From Siphonodentalium dalli (taxonomy: Eukaryota; Mollusca; Scaphopoda; Gadilida; Siphonodentaliidae), in NCBI GenBank assembly GCA_032622095.1, contig CP136062.1, positions 35,216,918 through 35,280,917 on the forward strand: 64,000 nucleotides of DNA. Reading direction: 5' to 3'. Of this stretch, positions 11,488-30,433 are shown piece by piece. A program made the translations under genes and the position numbers. Numbering within the stretch: position 1 is the stretch's first letter; every line of letters begins with the position of its first letter. The notes beneath the pieces are model-generated. The model worked only from the letters and a program-made list of their open reading frames with translations. It did no database searches and had not been told where the DNA came from.

Positions 11488-12549
11488 GATTTGTACATTA
11501 TGGATATTGACTTATGATTTGTATATTATGGATATTGACTTATGATTTGTACATTATTGATATTGACTTATGATGTGTACAGTATGGATATTGACTTATG
11601 ATTTGTACATTATGGATATTGACTTATGATTTGTACATTATGGATATTGACTTATGTGTACATTATTGATATTGACTTATGATTTGTACATTATTGATAT
11701 TGACTTATGATGTGTACATTATTGATATTGACTTATGATTTGTACCTAATGAATATTGACTTATGATTTGTACATTATGGATATTGACTTATGATTTGTA
11801 CCTAATGAATATTGACTTATGATTTGTACATTATGGATATTTACTTATGATTTGTACATTATTGATATTGACTTATGATGTGTACATTATGGATATTGAC
11901 TTATGATTTGTACCTAATAAATATTGACTTATGATTTGTACATTATGGATATTGACTTATGATTTGTACATTATGGATATTGACTTATGTGTACATTATT
12001 GATATTGACTTATGATTTGTACATTATGGATATTTACTTATGATTTGTACATTATTGATATTGACTTATGATGTGTAGATTATGGATATTGACTTATGAG
12101 TTCTACCTAATAAATATTGACTTATGATTTGTACATTATGGATATTGACTTATGATTTGTACATTATGGATATTGACTTATGTGTACATTATTGATATTG
12201 ACTTATGATTTGTACATTATGGATATTGACTTATGATTTGTACTTTATGGATATTAACTTATGATTTGTACATTATGGATATTGACTTATGATTTGTACA
12301 TTATGGATATTGACTTATGATGTGTACATTATGGATATTGACTTATAATTTGTACCTAATAAATATTGACTTATGATTTGTACTTTATTGATATTGACTT
12401 ATGATTTGTACATTATGGATATTGACTTATGATTTGTACTTTATGGATATTGACTTATGATTTGTACATTATGGATATTGACTTATGATTTGTACATTAT
12501 GGATATTGACTTATGATTTGTACATTATGGATATTGACTTATGATTTGT
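11488..12549 (+). repeat. 28-bp minisatellite, about 38 copies
   Basis: Head-to-tail copies of a 28-base unit: GATTTGTACATTATGGATAT followed by TGACTTAT. Variants include TTATTGATAT, GATGTGTACA and CCTAATGAAT or CCTAATAAAT, plus several shortened units lacking GATTT. Variant types recur in a patterned order (for example blocks ending in the short GTGTACATTATTGAT unit), which suggests multi-unit duplications. No coding potential. Confidence 0.95.
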
Positions 12550-23996: not shown

Positions 23997-24175
23997 TTAA
24001 CCATTATCAAAATGAAACCGTTTCCACATAAATGCAGATGTCCTAACGAGCAAGCGAGACAGATTAGAGTGGTTATCTGAGAGTAGAGCGAGATCTCTAG
24101 GTGGCGATCCCAGAAGGGCAGACAGTAGCTGCAGACGGGGTATTTGGTCTAGGTAGAGGAAACAGTCAATGCCAT
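23997..24175 (-). pseudogene. Non-LTR retrotransposon protein, extreme C-terminus (interrupted)
   Basis: On the minus strand this encodes GIDCFLYLDQIPRLQLLSAL through RTSAFMWKRFHFDNG and a stop. The leucine-rich, FMWKRF-like end resembles the last part of many LINE ORF2 proteins. It abuts the left terminus of the 24176-30018 transposon. The matching upstream part is at 30019-30348 on the same strand, and the two join in frame through a shared CATTGAC (IID/GID). Confidence 0.55.
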
Positions 24176-24215
24176 AATTCGTCGCATCGGTGCTAAAGTG
24201 TTCTATATCCATTTT
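24176..24215 (+). repeat. Left terminal inverted repeat (40 bp)
   Basis: It starts AATTCGTCGCATCGGTGCTA and ends CTATATCCATTTT. It is the exact reverse complement of 29979-30018. Confidence 0.9.
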
Positions 24216-24687
24216 GGCGGGAAAATGAGTTATGGGTACCATTGCGCTCAGCGTGGGATTCTGCATCAGAAAACACGTAGTTATCATGCAAGCTATGCCC
24301 TATTTCCCTACAAAACGCTGTGCAAAACTGTTCCAAGATGAGATTGATCATTTTTACCAGTGCTAGATTGTTCTAACTCCAGAGCCAATGAAACACACGC
24401 GATTGAGCACGTGACGTAAGTTTGGCGAATGGCGTGTTCGATACTGTCAACAAATTTCGCTGGATGTTCCAGGTGAGTTTTCTCAATTATCTTGTGTTCT
24501 ATTCACCCAATACGCGAGCTAAACTGAAAATAAAATATTCCTCTTCAATCGGTTAGCATTGTGTTTACTATAATTCGTACATAAAGCGAGTTTTAGCATG
24601 AATTGGAGATAGAACAGTTAAGCACGGAAGAAATTAATGTTACCAAGGGTGCATGTAGTTGATTTTTGGAGATAGAACAGTATAACA
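24191..24687. promoter_or_regulatory. Left subterminal motif cluster (four copies)
   Basis: Copies of a 21-bp motif (TGCTNAANTGTTCTATM then TCCA) occur at 24191-24211 (+, within the inverted terminus), 24361-24381 (+), 24604-24624 (-) and 24667-24687 (-). Such subterminal repeats are typical binding sites for the element's own transposase; that role is inferred. Confidence 0.65.
24385..24419 (+). promoter_or_regulatory. Putative promoter motifs before the F-box gene
   Basis: A CCAAT box (24385-24389), an E-box CACGTG (24408-24413) and an overlapping CRE-like TGACGTAA (24412-24419) stand just upstream of the proposed initiator ATG at 24429. No TATA box was identified. Assignment is by motif and position only. 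Confidence 0.35.
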
Positions 24688-26337
24688 CTGAATCTATACT
24701 ACAATGAAATGAGTACCCTACAGCATTGTCCATTAATTATTTAAAACTATTTGTATTAAACACAATGATTGCAGCTAATATGTGTATACATCGTGGCCAG
24801 ATGCGCGCACCGTGTATATATATATCCGTATGTGTGTCCGGATTGGGGATGAAAAAAGCCAGAGTCAAGTTATTGCCATGTCACGAGTTAATGCCATGTT
24901 CAACGTACGTCCTGCGTACGTCCGTTTGTATATTAATATATTATACATTGGTTTGTGATTGGGTACTATGGCAAGCCAAACTAAAATAATTGGACTTAAG
25001 TCTAATTGTTTTCGACATAATGGCAATTGTTCTGACTATCAATTTGGCGAGCAGGTGCACTTAAGTCAAATTAACCTAATTGGACTTAAGTCCAATTAAT
25101 TGCCACAATGTACAAGTTATAATGTACTCGATCACGACTCGTTTAATAGGCACAATGGGCCATACAATGGACCATACCATTAATGTGTGACGGGTGTACG
25201 GCGACACTCCAGTTATTAAGAGAAATACACATAATGTCAATCAATTGGAATTAAGTCAATTATTTGAAATTATGTGCAGCATTCCATTGTCTATAGCTAT
25301 ATGTTCAATTTATGATAGCATGATTTTGACAAGTCGGCAATACATGACCGGATAGAAGCATGCATTTATTTTTAATTGTTCCAATAAAGCTTTGCAAACT
25401 GAAAAAAATGAGTATGTGTTTCGAAATAGTTTGGAGGTCAGTTTGTCGAATTTCTTGATTGTATTAATGTATTAATTGTATTAATTGTGTTATACACTAT
25501 TTTCTAGATAGTCCTGTAGCCTGCCTGTAAATCCATGTCAGTTTGAGCTCAAGAAATCTTAGTATGTGGTGTATTATACAACTTAATTTTTCTTGTATTT
25601 TCAGATCTGTCTCGGAACCTCTCTCGCTTGATGACTTCCCGGAGTGCCTTGTGGTAAAGATATTCGCATTCCTACCTCTCGTCGAACTCATACAACGAGT
25701 GTCTAGGTGTTGTAAGCGTTTTGGAGAGATAATTAAATATAACGGACAGTTATGGAGACACTTCGAGTTCCACGATGGGATTTCGTTAACCAATCTGGAT
25801 CTGAACTATATAATGTTACATTCCAACTTCTTCATTCACTTTGAGATCGCAAACGCCTACATTAATTGCGAGAGGTGGAACATTGACTTTCAGATTACAC
25901 GTGGTCTGCTTCGAGCTAAACGACTCATATCTCTTAACCTATCTGCATGCGAGCTGTCAACGTTATGTTTCCTGCCCTTGCTTACGAGATTAGAATTTCT
26001 TGATGTATCGGAATGCACCAACATACAAGACGCTGATTTTACGACTATTAAATGTTGTGTAAACTTGAAACATTTATATATTTCTTTCACTGGTATTCGC
26101 TCTGGAACTGTCTTCTTGATCACACAACACCTGACAAGTTTGCAAACACTAGACATATCAGGAATCCCGTTCTCTTTGCTTGATGCTTTCAGTTTACTAA
26201 ACCTTGTCATTAACAGTTCAATCACCTACCTTCAACTAACACTTGAGAACAAATCGTCGCTTGAGTCATTTCGCAGAGAAGCTAAGCGGCATACCAACTG
26301 TTGTGTTTCTGTTGATTCTATCGACCTGTACAGGTGA
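24429..26337 (+). CDS. F-box/LRR protein, two exons, carried by the transposon
   Basis: Proposed exons are 24429-24472 and 25605-26337, giving 258 residues. The donor is CCAG|GTGAGT at 24472 and the acceptor TTGTATTTTCAG ends at 25604; the phase matches, joining ...AGCSR to SVSEPLSLDDF. Residues about 22-68 form an F-box (LDDFPECLVVKIFAFLPLVE, then CCKRF and LWRHFEF). This domain normally binds SKP1 within an SCF ubiquitin ligase. Leucine-rich repeats follow (LISLNLSACELSTL, LEFLDVSECTNI, LKHLYISFTGI, LQTLDISGIPF), a likely substrate-binding surface. The stop codon lies nine bases before the transposase-like ATG. Role is inferred: turnover of a host or transposase protein, or an accidentally captured host gene. 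The F-box exon is secure, exon 1 less so. Confidence 0.75.
24988..25097. repeat. CTTAAG palindromes in the F-box gene intron
   Basis: AATTGGACTTAAGTCCAATT at 25078-25097 is a perfect 20-base palindrome. 24988-25007 differs by one base, and a half-matching GTGCACTTAAGTCAAATT lies near 25056. They resemble the cluster at 288-430 in core but not in flanks. Confidence 0.75.
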
Positions 26338-26345
26338 ACACCACC

Positions 26346-28527
26346 ATGGACGTTCAAGAAGCTTTGGAACTGTTCGACAACATACCTGAAACTGCCTTGG
26401 AAGATTCCGATATTGATGACTGCATTGTTAGCGTAGATCCTGTGATCAATTTCAATGACGACCAAGCACCGTCTGATAGTGACTGCATGCTTAATGCTGG
26501 GTCTAGTGAAACTCTATTAGACAAGTTTTCTCACGTGCAAACAATCGTTGACATTTTTCAAGATGTCATAGTTCCAGAGGTGTGCCCTATCAGTAACCTT
26601 CGCCCGACTTCAGAGTTATGTATTGATGAGTATCGCGATATCCCGGATCACGAGGAAGATGAAACTGCAACTGCCGGCACCAGTACACCGGCAGTTGATA
26701 CATTGCCACACATTAGTGTGACTGGTCCAAGTGTTGATCCAGGGGAAACTACAACACGGAGTGTATCTACAGATACATGTACCGCCCAAAATGATAAGCC
26801 TACTAGAAAATCGCGCAAGCGGGTTCGGGACCCGGTAGCATGGACAAGAAATGTGCGCAAACGGATGCGGCAGGCTGGCGAAAACTATAATGATTATAAG
26901 GGCAGAGGAAAAGAAGCAAAACGCGTGAAGAAAAAAAAAGATTGTAATGGAAAATGTCGGTACAAATGTTCAATAATGATTACAGAGGACGAGAGACAAT
27001 CCGTACATACAAAATTTTGGGAGCTAACTGACACAGAAAAAAATGGATTCTACGCGCGCAACACAGAACGCGTAAACACAGAACGTGCGCGCCCTAGTTC
27101 AAAATCTGATGAACACACCCCGAAAAGGAGAAATTTCTCAATTAAATACTATTTCACAGTCAATGATTCAAAAATTCGTGTATGTAAGGAGTACTTTCTG
27201 ACCACCCTGGACATTAGTCAGCGAAGGATCAGCTATTTCCACGAACGGTGCGACGATGGTGGTTTTGAGGATAGAAGAGGTAGACATATTAAAAAAAAAG
27301 TACCAGATCATGTTGTTCAGCACGTACGGGACCACATAAATTCCTTTCCAAGAATACCGTCTCACTACTGTAGGAGTACGACAAAGAGGGAATACCTTGA
27401 ACCAGGATTATCACTGTCAAAAATGTATCAGATATATACCGAATGGTGCTCACAACACGGCTTCACTGTGATCAATCAAAATTATTACAGAAATGTTTTC
27501 AACTACGAATTTAACCTTGGATTCCATGTTCCCAAAAAGGATTTGTGTGATAAGTGTTCTCTGTATAATGCCAGTGTGAAAAATTCCGAAAATATTTCCG
27601 ACAATGTAATGTCGTTATACCTGGCACATATGAATGATAAGGATAATACACGCGCACAGAGAAAAAGAGATCGTGATGGTGGAGACGTAGTAATATGTTT
27701 TGACATGCAAAACGTAATAACATTACCAAAATCGAACGTCTCTAATTTTTTTTACAAAAGGAAGCTCACTACATTCAACCTAACTGCCAATTGTTCTAAA
27801 AATAAAATTAACTACAACGCTATATGGACAGAGAATCAGTCGGGTAGAGACGGCAATTCAATCGCAAGCGCATTGATTAAACTTTTGAAACGAATACTAG
27901 TGGATTTGCCCGAAACTAAAACAGTCATACTGTGGAGTGATTCTTGTGTTCCACAAAATCGGAATTCACACATGTCGCTAGCGTTAAAGCATTTTCTTGA
28001 TACCCACCCAAACATAGACAGGATTGAACAGAAGTTTTCCACTCCAGGTCACTCCTCAGTGCAGGAGGTGGACAACGCACACTCGCATTTCGAAAAAATG
28101 ATGTCTGTGTCGGAAATAATGAGCCCAATGGCTTTAATAAGGGTGCTTACACATGTACGTGAAAATTACACCCGCGTTATACAAATGCAGAATGATGATT
28201 TCTTTAATTATCAAAAAGCAGCCTCACACTTTAAGTTTAACCGGGGTACCATTCACTCAAGTGAAACATGTGGTGTATGAAAAACTAAAGCCAAACACGT
28301 GTGCATTTAAGTTGGATTTTGCGGCGTTGGATTTCAGTGAGGCGTCTCTAATTCCAGCTAGTCGCCGACAGAGAACTATCGCTATACCGACACCAGAAAT
28401 TGTACAAAAGCGACCGAAGCTCTCCAAAGAAAAACTCGCCGATCTCAAGAGTATGCTGAAATACATGTCCACGTTCGATAGGGAATATTATGAAGCAGTC
28501 TTTTTCAAGAAGAAGAGGAGGGGATAG
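26346..28527 (+). CDS. Transposase-like protein (DUF7869-type), one probable frameshift
   Basis: The ATG at 26346 has an ideal Kozak context (caccaccATGG). The frame runs 644 codons to 28280. The acidic N-terminus is followed by a basic KRVRDPVAWTRNVRKRMRQA segment, a cysteine cluster CNGKCRYKC (about residue 200) with FWELTD, and CDKC (about 400). The C-terminal core has VICFDMQNVITLPK (D453), LWSDSC.PQNRN (D532) and GHSSVQEVDNAH (D576). This pattern matches invertebrate DUF7869-type proteins (from memory), likely an RNase H-like catalytic core; the acidic triad is inferred. The frame breaks in GGGG at 28243-28246. In the next frame, family-like sequence (VPFTQVKHVVYEKLKP) continues to 28527, ending KKKRRG. 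A one-base insertion or sequencing error explains this; corrected length would be 726 residues. Confidence 0.7.
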
Positions 28528-28574
28528 TGGTTCATTCACAGACTTCAAGTGTACTTGTATAATTATATTGTCCA

Positions 28575-28639
28575 TTGAGTGCAATAATGTACCGACTACA
28601 TTTATAATATGAATACAGTTGGCACCTTATTGCACTCAA
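28575..28639. terminator. Hairpin shortly after the transposase-like gene
   Basis: TTGAGTGCAATAA at 28575-28587 is the exact reverse complement of 28627-28639. The loop is 39 bases, and the left arm begins 48 bases after the stop codon. It could be a 3'-end structure or a nested repeat. The nearest AATAAA seen is at 29047-29052. Confidence 0.35.
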
Positions 28640-29727
28640 GGGATGATAAACGGTAACGCTTCACGCATACATGTACATGTAGCGCTACATAATCTGGTGT
28701 TGTTATAAAGAAGTTCATTGTGTTCTGTTGATTTGTTCTGGTGAAAAACGGTTAAACTTGTTGTTTCCATGAGACCAATATGTACTATGTTTTAGAACCC
28801 GTGGATGAGGATCCGGGTTCCAGTTAATTTTGTATAATGACTTCCCCAAGTACCGGGGTATAGGACATATATTATTGAGTTTCTATTTCTCCATGTGGTT
28901 TCGAATTAAAGGTTTTGAGTATTAGCAGCAATTTTTAGATACAAATCTCTCCCCAAAACGGTGAACCGGAACAAAAGAATTGACCTATCCTGATTTGACA
29001 TAATGCATGATTAAAGGTCCATTTTTATTCGAATCACCAAATTACAAATAAACATACTCCATATTATACCATTGTATAACATATACCATGTATCAGAAGA
29101 AGCTCCAACAACGTTGCATTTTTAACTTATCCGGTTGATTAAACTGTGAACATGTCCTTTTGTCGAGGTACGGTTGTGTGGTCTGTGCTTATTTTTTATC
29201 CAGACTGAATAGTCAATAACAATTATTTTGTATAGGCATAATCGGTGACTCGAGCAACAAATGGACATTTAAATTTAAGATGCAGTTGGTATCAATCGGG
29301 CTTGTTGAACTGCATGCTTGTAATATGGTCGGGTATACCACAACTTAATGACATAATCCCAACGTGTATTGGTAAAGTCAGAAAACACCGGTTAAGAGGT
29401 CAGAAGTCAATGTGGAACATTTCTAAACACTTTCTGTTGTCGCATTATTCTGGAACTTGTCAGCTTTTTTTTGCTGTTTCCGTGACATAAAGCAGCGATT
29501 CTTCACGAAACTAACAATATTAAGATGCATTAGCTGGTTTTTAATCGCATTATAGAAATGTCCCAATTAATGTGACCTCTGACCTCTAAACTGGTGTTGA
29601 TATTGACTTTACGAATGGGCTTGATGAATGATTAATTGCGTTGGATTTATTTGTAATATTGAATGAAATGGCAGCGTATCGACGATGTTCCCATTTTAGT
29701 ATGTATTATTAACTGGGCTGATACACG
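28640..29727. other. Right interior of the transposon, no gene recognised
   Basis: AT-rich sequence between the transposase-like gene and the right subterminal repeats. An 81-codon frame at 29245-29490 has no recognised domain. Confidence 0.4.
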
Positions 29728-30003
29728 TGCTATAATGTTCTATATCCATACCCACTTAAGCACACAACAAATCCGGGTCAAATAGCGCTTAAGTGTTCTA
29801 TCTCCAAACACGTTTTATTGAATAATTTGGACGACAGTTCGTTTCTACCACGGAAACTATGTCAGTATTATTGTTTTATGGTCCGACATCGATAGCTAAT
29901 GCGTTTTTACGAAATGATACCTCTGGGTGTGCCCCATGGCACGCCAAAATTTCAATGTCGATTTCCCACAAAAATGACAAAATGGATATAGAACACTTTA
30001 GCA
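29728..30003. promoter_or_regulatory. Right subterminal motif cluster (three copies)
   Basis: Copies of the 21-bp motif with core TGTTCTATMTCCA occur at 29728-29748 (+), 29786-29806 (+) and 29983-30003 (-, within the inverted terminus). They match those at the left end. Confidence 0.65.
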
Positions 30004-30018
30004 CCGATGCGACGAATT
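29979..30018 (-). repeat. Right terminal inverted repeat (40 bp)
   Basis: It is the exact reverse complement of 24176-24215 and ends CGATGCGACGAATT. Confidence 0.9.
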
Positions 30019-30348
30019 GTCAATGATGTGGTACCACATGTCATTCCGAATATGTAGCAATGACGGGCAGTCTAACAAGATATGTTGTACTACACATGAG
30101 TAGGTCGCTAAACAATGTTTGCATATATCATTTTGTCCGAAAGCTGTATGTGCGATTATGCGACCGATCAAGAGGAATACAAATTTTTCCTCCGGAAATT
30201 GTGAGCATAGTTTCCATATACCGATCGTCCGTAGCGTGGGGTGAATGGTACGGAATGCTGTTAAAGAGGAGTCGTCGGAGATACGATTATACCAGTCAAG
30301 TTCATCTAACTCCTTTACAGCTGTCCTTACCAAGCGTTTCCACACCAT
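30019..30348 (-). pseudogene. Non-LTR retrotransposon protein, C-terminal zinc-binding region (fragment)
   Basis: Minus-strand coding sequence reads WKLCSQFPEEKFVFLLIGRI, then CKHCLATYSCVVQHILLDCP and LHIRNDMWYHIID. The C..C...H...C pattern followed by CP.L...R is typical of the zinc-binding C-terminus after the reverse transcriptase domain in LINE ORF2 proteins. It continues in frame into 23997-24175 once the 24176-30018 transposon is removed. The upstream end is truncated where the GGCCCATGCCACC tail element begins, so no reverse transcriptase motifs are present. Confidence 0.65.
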
Positions 30349-30433
30349 AGGCCCATGCCACCCCCGGCCGAAAATACCCCCACATACCAAGTTTCATCGA
30401 AATCGGCTCGGTCGTTTTCGAGTCCATCGCGAT

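Follow-up and report, generated by a model that had tools for sequence, protein, structure and literature searches.

Ubiquitin-linked transposons and the element of Siphonodentalium dalli

Proteins acting on ubiquitin or related marks have been described on transposons before. According to the accessible parts of the articles cited here, Ginger1 DNA transposons carry OTU or Ulp1 domains and occur also in the mollusc Aplysia (PMC2836005), and Helentrons/Helitrons carry VTD or OTU deubiquitinase domains (PMC9741609). Two further groups invite comparison, namely Sola, with a DDD transposase, a 4-bp target-site duplication (TSD), a length of 2-9 kb and terminal inverted repeats (TIRs) of 11 bp and more (PMC10741241), and Kolobok, lineages of which (e.g., KolobokP) are DNA transposons with two genes, known from molluscs among other animals (PMC9587614). 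Here we describe a 5.84-kb DNA transposon (positions 24176-30018, including its target duplications) in a 64-kb stretch of contig CP136062.1 of Siphonodentalium dalli (GCA_032622095.1), hereafter the window. It carries an F-box/leucine-rich repeat (LRR) gene followed directly by a DDE-type transposase gene. The element probably belongs to a recently active cut-and-paste family of autonomous type, which has the F-box/LRR gene as a regular second component and not as a chance passenger.

Ginger1 resembles this element as a DDE cut-and-paste transposon of several kb, with TIRs of ~40 bp and more, a 4-bp TSD and a ubiquitin/SUMO-pathway activity (PMC2836005). Its cysteine proteases, however, are fused to the C-terminus of the transposase and remove ubiquitin-like marks (PMC2836005), whereas the present element has a separate upstream F-box adaptor gene, the product of which would add such marks. 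Ginger1 termini are TGTNR and its targets CCGG (PMC2836005), in contrast to the termini CGTYGC and the AT-rich targets found here, and a Pfam scan of the window open reading frame (ORF) and of the full frame of copy L021 found neither OTU nor Ulp1. With Helitrons the likeness lies in a ubiquitin-system protein encoded on a transposon with its active site kept, but these are rolling-circle elements in which the domain is fused within the RepHel ORF and is a deubiquitinase rather than an E3 adaptor (PMC9741609). Sola agrees in its 4-bp TSD, its length and its TIRs, and its DDD-type transposase would fit the candidate triad described below, a comparison made by description only; the available part of that description does not mention an F-box gene (PMC10741241). 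Kolobok shares the two genes and, in some lineages, the 4-bp TSD, but differs in its TTAA target, its 5'-RR termini and its accessory proteins, which are KolX, nucleases or a helicase and not F-box proteins (PMC9587614).

No F-box gene in a DNA transposon was found described in the literature, subscription journals and Repbase lying outside the search, and a literature search on DUF7869, a Pfam family that the transposase matches below its cut-off, returned no F-box transposon. Transposon deubiquitinases and SUMO proteases are known, as far as the accessible text goes (PMC2836005, PMC9741609); an F-box gene that is spliced, stands apart and precedes a DDE transposase is apparently new.

Ends, copies and subfamilies

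The inverted arms of the element (24176-24216 and 29978-30018) are 41 nt long with a 100% inverted match (BLAST E 2.8e-15), and no further BLAST match to them was found elsewhere in the window. An earlier note on this DNA had reported exact inverted termini of 40 bp. The exactness stands, but the length does not, as the 41 nt consist of a 37-bp perfect TIR and the 4-bp target duplication AATT. This division was drawn because the TIRs of other copies begin at the same base and are adjoined by different tetramers. By self-comparison and comparison with these copies, the left TSD and left TIR (+ strand) lie at 24176-24179 and 24180-24216, and the right TIR (- strand) and right TSD at 29978-30014 and 30015-30018.

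A protein search of the S. dalli genome (2.23 Gb, 9 contigs) gave at least 73 matches, merged to at least 60 transposase loci, of which 20 were read as 10-kb stretches; these counts are minima, as 69 of 366 candidates were scored. Copies L021, L022 and L023 are full length and 99.7-99.8% identical to the window copy, L025 and L026 are about 96-97% identical, and L024 is without its 5' part. Both TIRs are present in L021, L022, L023 and L025, with the left end damaged in L026 and L027 diverged. The four full-length copies occupy four unlinked places and have differing target duplications or flanks. An exact 4-bp TSD was found in six of nine two-ended copies (AATT, AGCT, ATAT, AGAT, ATAT in L027, and CTAT in L031). 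These targets, together with the termini CGTCGC/CGTTGC, exclude Ginger1, and Kolobok and piggyBac are excluded by the TSDs, none of the six being TTAA. The tetramer CAAT adjoins the right end in L026, L033 and L041 with no matching left duplication, either by chance or through a shared event.

The pairing of the two genes proposed in the earlier note recurs: the F-box gene is present in the copies with the same TIRs (L021, L022, L023 and L025) and also in L026 and the diverged L027, though its frame is broken by a shift in L024 and L025. Profile searches found it in 12 of the 20 loci read (L021-L029, L031, L032 and L034, with L028 a fragment) and gave no F-box match in L030, L033, L035 and L036-L040, of which L033 and L035 also have no N-terminal part of the transposase. 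Among the matches listed, an F-box match lies within 4 kb upstream in 14 of 60 transposase loci. Within the same matches, it accompanies 12 of the 15 loci that have at least 44% identity and are matched from residue 160 or earlier, the other three being L028 (fragment present), L030 and one unread locus, and none of the 29 loci with transposase identity of 40% or less.

Five subfamilies were distinguished, with F-box proteins 27-45% identical, transposases 47-57% identical and the F-box gene at the same place. In a 100-tip transposase tree, the 13 F-box-bearing copies group with the truncated L033 and L035 in a single clade (support 100), which is sister to two Lottia gigantea proteins (support 91); L030 is placed elsewhere.

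A 22-nt TIR-related motif occurs seven times in the window (up to 4 mismatches), each time within the two ends of the element, in agreement with the seven copies that had been reported. Two of these are the TIRs themselves. The remaining five, located by motif search, lie at 24360-24381 (+, 4 mismatches), 24604-24625 (-, 3 mismatches), 24667-24688 (-, 4 mismatches), 29727-29748 (+, 2 mismatches) and 29785-29806 (+, 3 mismatches). When the flanks are joined with a single AATT, one continuous minus-strand ORF of 185 aa results, with its upstream part at 30019-30393 and the rest leftwards at 23997-24179; the insertion is therefore recent relative to that ORF. This ORF had been labeled a LINE. Its interruption was borne out and the label remained unconfirmed, Pfam returning DUF3678 only for the right piece (E 0.056) and no match for the left.

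The window further contains a 28-bp tandem repeat (11488-12549; 38 copies, 90% matches) and 30 kb of strand-skewed satellite (34000-64000; 51% G+C), the repeat units of which measure about 122 and 490 bp.

The F-box gene, the transposase and their junction

The F-box gene lies on the plus strand. Coding exon 1 (24429-24472), MACSILSTNFAGCS followed by a GTGAGT donor, is seen in the sequence of the window and also in L021, L023 and L025. The intron (24473-25604) ends in the acceptor TTTTCAG, and exon 2 (25605-26337) holds the F-box (about 25627-25767), the LRR part and the stop, as placed by Pfam, profile and model. Together these give a predicted spliced ORF of 258 codons. A pyrimidine-rich CAG acceptor directly 5' of the F-box exon was found in all five subfamilies. 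Exon 1 was seen only in the window subfamily (L021, L023, L025), a simple pattern search of L027, L031, L034 and L029 giving no clear equivalent. The Pfam scores of the product are above cut-off for F-box-like (27.9 bits, cut-off 24.3) and F-box (25.2, cut-off 20.5) and slightly below for LRR_4 (26.4, cut-off 27), which upholds the F-box/LRR gene of the earlier note. A match to the F-box domain at E<=0.01 was obtained in four of four members checked, and the predicted model has an LRR solenoid after the F-box, with fold matches to SKP2 and FBXL2. The F-box region is the best conserved part, with a mean pairwise identity across the five subfamilies of 43% (residues 8-54) against 30-37% elsewhere, and the F-box motifs LP..., ELh, C+RF and LW are kept.

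Both genes are under purifying selection, as had been suggested as a check for the F-box gene. Under a codon model, omega was 0.190 in the F-box gene (237 codons in 9 sequences; log-likelihood (lnL) -4406.2 vs -4512.7 at omega 1) and 0.126 in the transposase (554 codons in 10 sequences; lnL -10069.0 vs -10567.7 at omega 1), values that are rough because synonymous sites are saturated between subfamilies, although the lnL difference is still large.

The large transposase-like ORF announced after the F-box stop is present and of DDE type, but is frame-shifted near its 3' end in the window copy. As read there (26346-28280, + strand) it has 644 aa with a predicted RNase H-like DDE domain and shifts frame near 28.24 kb, the conserved C-terminus following in another frame (28250-28527, +, start approximate). 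At the shift the window copy differs in length by one nucleotide from three copies nearly identical to it, and L021, L022 and L023 have an open transposase frame of 726 codons. The RNase H-like DDE fold is indicated by structure prediction and a structural match. Three plus-strand codons encode a candidate DDD triad, D453 (27702-27704), D532 (27939-27941) and D576 (28071-28073), located in fitting secondary-structure elements of the predicted model. D453, in strand 448-454, is invariant in 64 sequences; D532, identified from the alignment and the model, and D576, in helix 573-588, are each conserved at 90% or more. A conserved D-x-x-H (D576 to H579, 28071-28082) in the third catalytic helix resembles the C/DxxH of the hAT/P/MuDR/Kolobok/Dada group.

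With Pfam DUF7869 (PF25273, cut-off 26), the window ORF (23.5 bits) and L021 (22.6 bits) scored below the cut-off and the relatives L036 (37.1) and L039 (28.4) above it. The transposase has 79 relatives at E<=1e-3, several of which (e.g., P0004) carry a precomputed DUF7869 label. A sequence search of the PDB gave no match, and a search with the transposase alignment found no relative in viral contigs (83 stretches) or genome contigs (34), both collections being poor in animal DNA. Two side observations concern this family. One DUF7869 homolog, P0055, has a precomputed OTU domain, so that another domain linked to ubiquitin occurs among these transposases. The distant DUF7869 transposases L036, L037, L039 and L040 (~33% identical) have long ORFs, in which 280-490 residues without a convincing Pfam match precede the transposase part.

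In the window the transposase ATG (26346) lies 8 nt past the F-box stop. This distance is 8, 3, 4 and 12 nt in four subfamilies and becomes an overlap in L029 (range -5 to 12 nt in all five), and an A at position -3 of the ATG is found in five of five. Leaky scanning to the transposase ATG is unlikely, because the spliced F-box ORF contains 11 further ATGs; if the two genes share a promoter, the transposase would then need reinitiation or alternative splicing. One promoter probably serves both proteins, and the transposase ORF would be reached either by reinitiation past the nearby stop or by alternative splicing that skips the F-box exon. Possible alternative acceptors near the junction (TACAG, GTAG, CTAG, GAAG) were seen in the window copy, L027, L031 and L029, and no obvious one close to the transposase ATG in L034. 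Such a tight two-cistron layout is unusual for an animal gene and is itself testable.

Origin and possible role of the F-box protein

A single F-box sequence gave no match at E<=1e-3 among 5.8 billion proteins, and a four-member profile found 12 proteins at E<=0.1. The top match, P0080, is a 163-aa ORF on a 748-bp contig (E 1.3e-19); it starts just before the F-box at an apparent intron end and may be a relative from another genome. The remaining matches are distant: LRR proteins, and SKP2 or SKP2-like proteins from fishes and amphibians starting at 2.2e-5. Searched against solved structures, the profile hit FBXL17 and SKP2 most strongly, and the best fold match of the predicted model (pLDDT 71.8) is Skp1-bound SKP2, a match favored by the SKP2 sequences in the alignment behind the model. 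The element protein shares with SKP2, FBXL17 and FBXL2, its best profile and fold matches, the order of F-box then LRR solenoid, but it is shorter (243-258 aa), distant (best named match 2.2e-5) and transposon-borne. A Foldseek search of the model against a viral library gave 103 matches at E<=0.001, to viral F-box proteins and LRR proteins (best 9.2e-07; top ten 12-18% identical), which reflect a shared fold and were not used for origin. The source of the gene is likely an FBXL-type host gene, and the simplest history on these sequences would be one capture in this lineage, before or after the split from Lottia, followed by retention.

Several points weigh against the F-box gene being a standing second gene of a cut-and-paste family. 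Three of the nine two-ended copies (L022, L033 and L041) have no matching TSD, and the last three right-end bases differ in L022. The F-box ORF is broken or cut in L024, L025, L028, L032, L034 and L042. A Foldseek search of the transposase against the PDB gave no match at E<=0.001, the best being a TnsABCD chain (3e-3). To these are added the saturation of synonymous sites and the bias toward SKP2 mentioned above. Lastly, 47 F-box loci were found in the genome, and a transposase was detected immediately downstream of 14 of them but not of the other 33, two of which were read.

Those 33 loci would fit a history in which transposons had repeatedly inserted into or beside members of a host F-box gene family. 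This is most improbable, however, as the F-box gene lies between the TIRs, within the mobile part, and moves with it to the four unlinked places of the full-length copies, and as both transposase-less loci read derive from, or are related to, such elements. L041 (G000:C4:254553300-254561300), 97-98% identical to L027, has both TIRs and an intact F-box ORF with most of the transposase deleted, and L042 (G000:C6:173405000-173409000) matches L031 at 89-94% identity in its F-box exon and in the DNA 5' of it. The host ortholog outside any transposon that the earlier note had considered was likewise absent from the protein searches. The F-box ORF of L042 ends at about residue 170 and several other genome loci match over residues 7-170 as well, which looks as though a single truncated F-box form had spread. 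DNA transposons can pick up host genes, and a host F-box gene captured once and carried without use to the element would account for the intron, as expected of a host gene, and for the broken frames of L024, L025 and L034. Relaxed change over such depth would nevertheless have destroyed the gene, whereas its omega is 0.19 (a gain of more than 106 lnL units over omega 1) among subfamilies with F-box proteins 27-45% identical, its ORF is intact in nine copies (window, L021, L022, L023, L026, L027, L029, L031 and L041) and it stands at the same place in every subfamily seen; a mere passenger is very unlikely.

If the gene is indeed a standing part of the element, the transposase would bind the TIRs and subterminal motifs and move the element by cut-and-paste, its insertion being staggered by 4 bp. 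The F-box protein would bind Skp1 through its F-box and join the host SCF (Skp1-Cul1-F-box) ubiquitin ligase, and the LRR would bring in one target for degradation. An SCF adaptor role is the most likely because conservation of the protein is highest in its F-box. A structural helper of the transpososome, binding DNA or transposase with no ubiquitin ligation, would have a parallel in the helper proteins of two-gene DNA transposons such as Kolobok lineages (PMC9587614, accessible part); it is improbable, given that the F-box is conserved above the rest (43% vs 30-37%) with its motifs kept, which fits Skp1 binding.

As for the target, the first choice would be a host protein that holds in check either the element or the cell state on which the element depends, because in a selfish element the gene has been maintained by selection through deep divergence. 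A host restriction, silencing or repair factor is quite possible, the element's own transposase rather less so; a cell-cycle brake, as with SKP2, is doubtful, and some other target or no SCF role at all somewhat less doubtful. Were the transposase the target, one transcript would deliver both an enzyme and its brake. The fixed order of the two ORFs and their spacing (-5 to 12 nt), found in all five subfamilies and coupling their dosage, are in keeping with such self-limitation, as is the retention of both genes along the same clade; the identities of F-box protein and transposase also correlate (r = 0.62, 10 subfamily pairs), for which shared ancestry alone suffices. A brake acting in trans, however, would make its own copy spread less and would be easily lost, and the transposase-deleted L041 retains its F-box gene, so that self-limitation is somewhat unlikely. 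Counter-defense by targeted proteolysis is known from viruses. A bolder reading, possible but less likely than not, is that the F-box protein is an SCF adaptor, expressed from a two-cistron transcript with reinitiation, which would destroy a host genome-defense, repair or cell-cycle protein as a transposon counter-defense.

It is the F-box adaptor that selects the proteins to be destroyed by a ubiquitin ligase, and selection has kept this gene through a whole transposon clade. This suggests that a transposon can bring its own protein-degradation tool. The long-standing question of whether cut-and-paste transposons act on host proteins for their own benefit becomes testable here, with the LRR of the F-box protein as a bait for finding the target directly.

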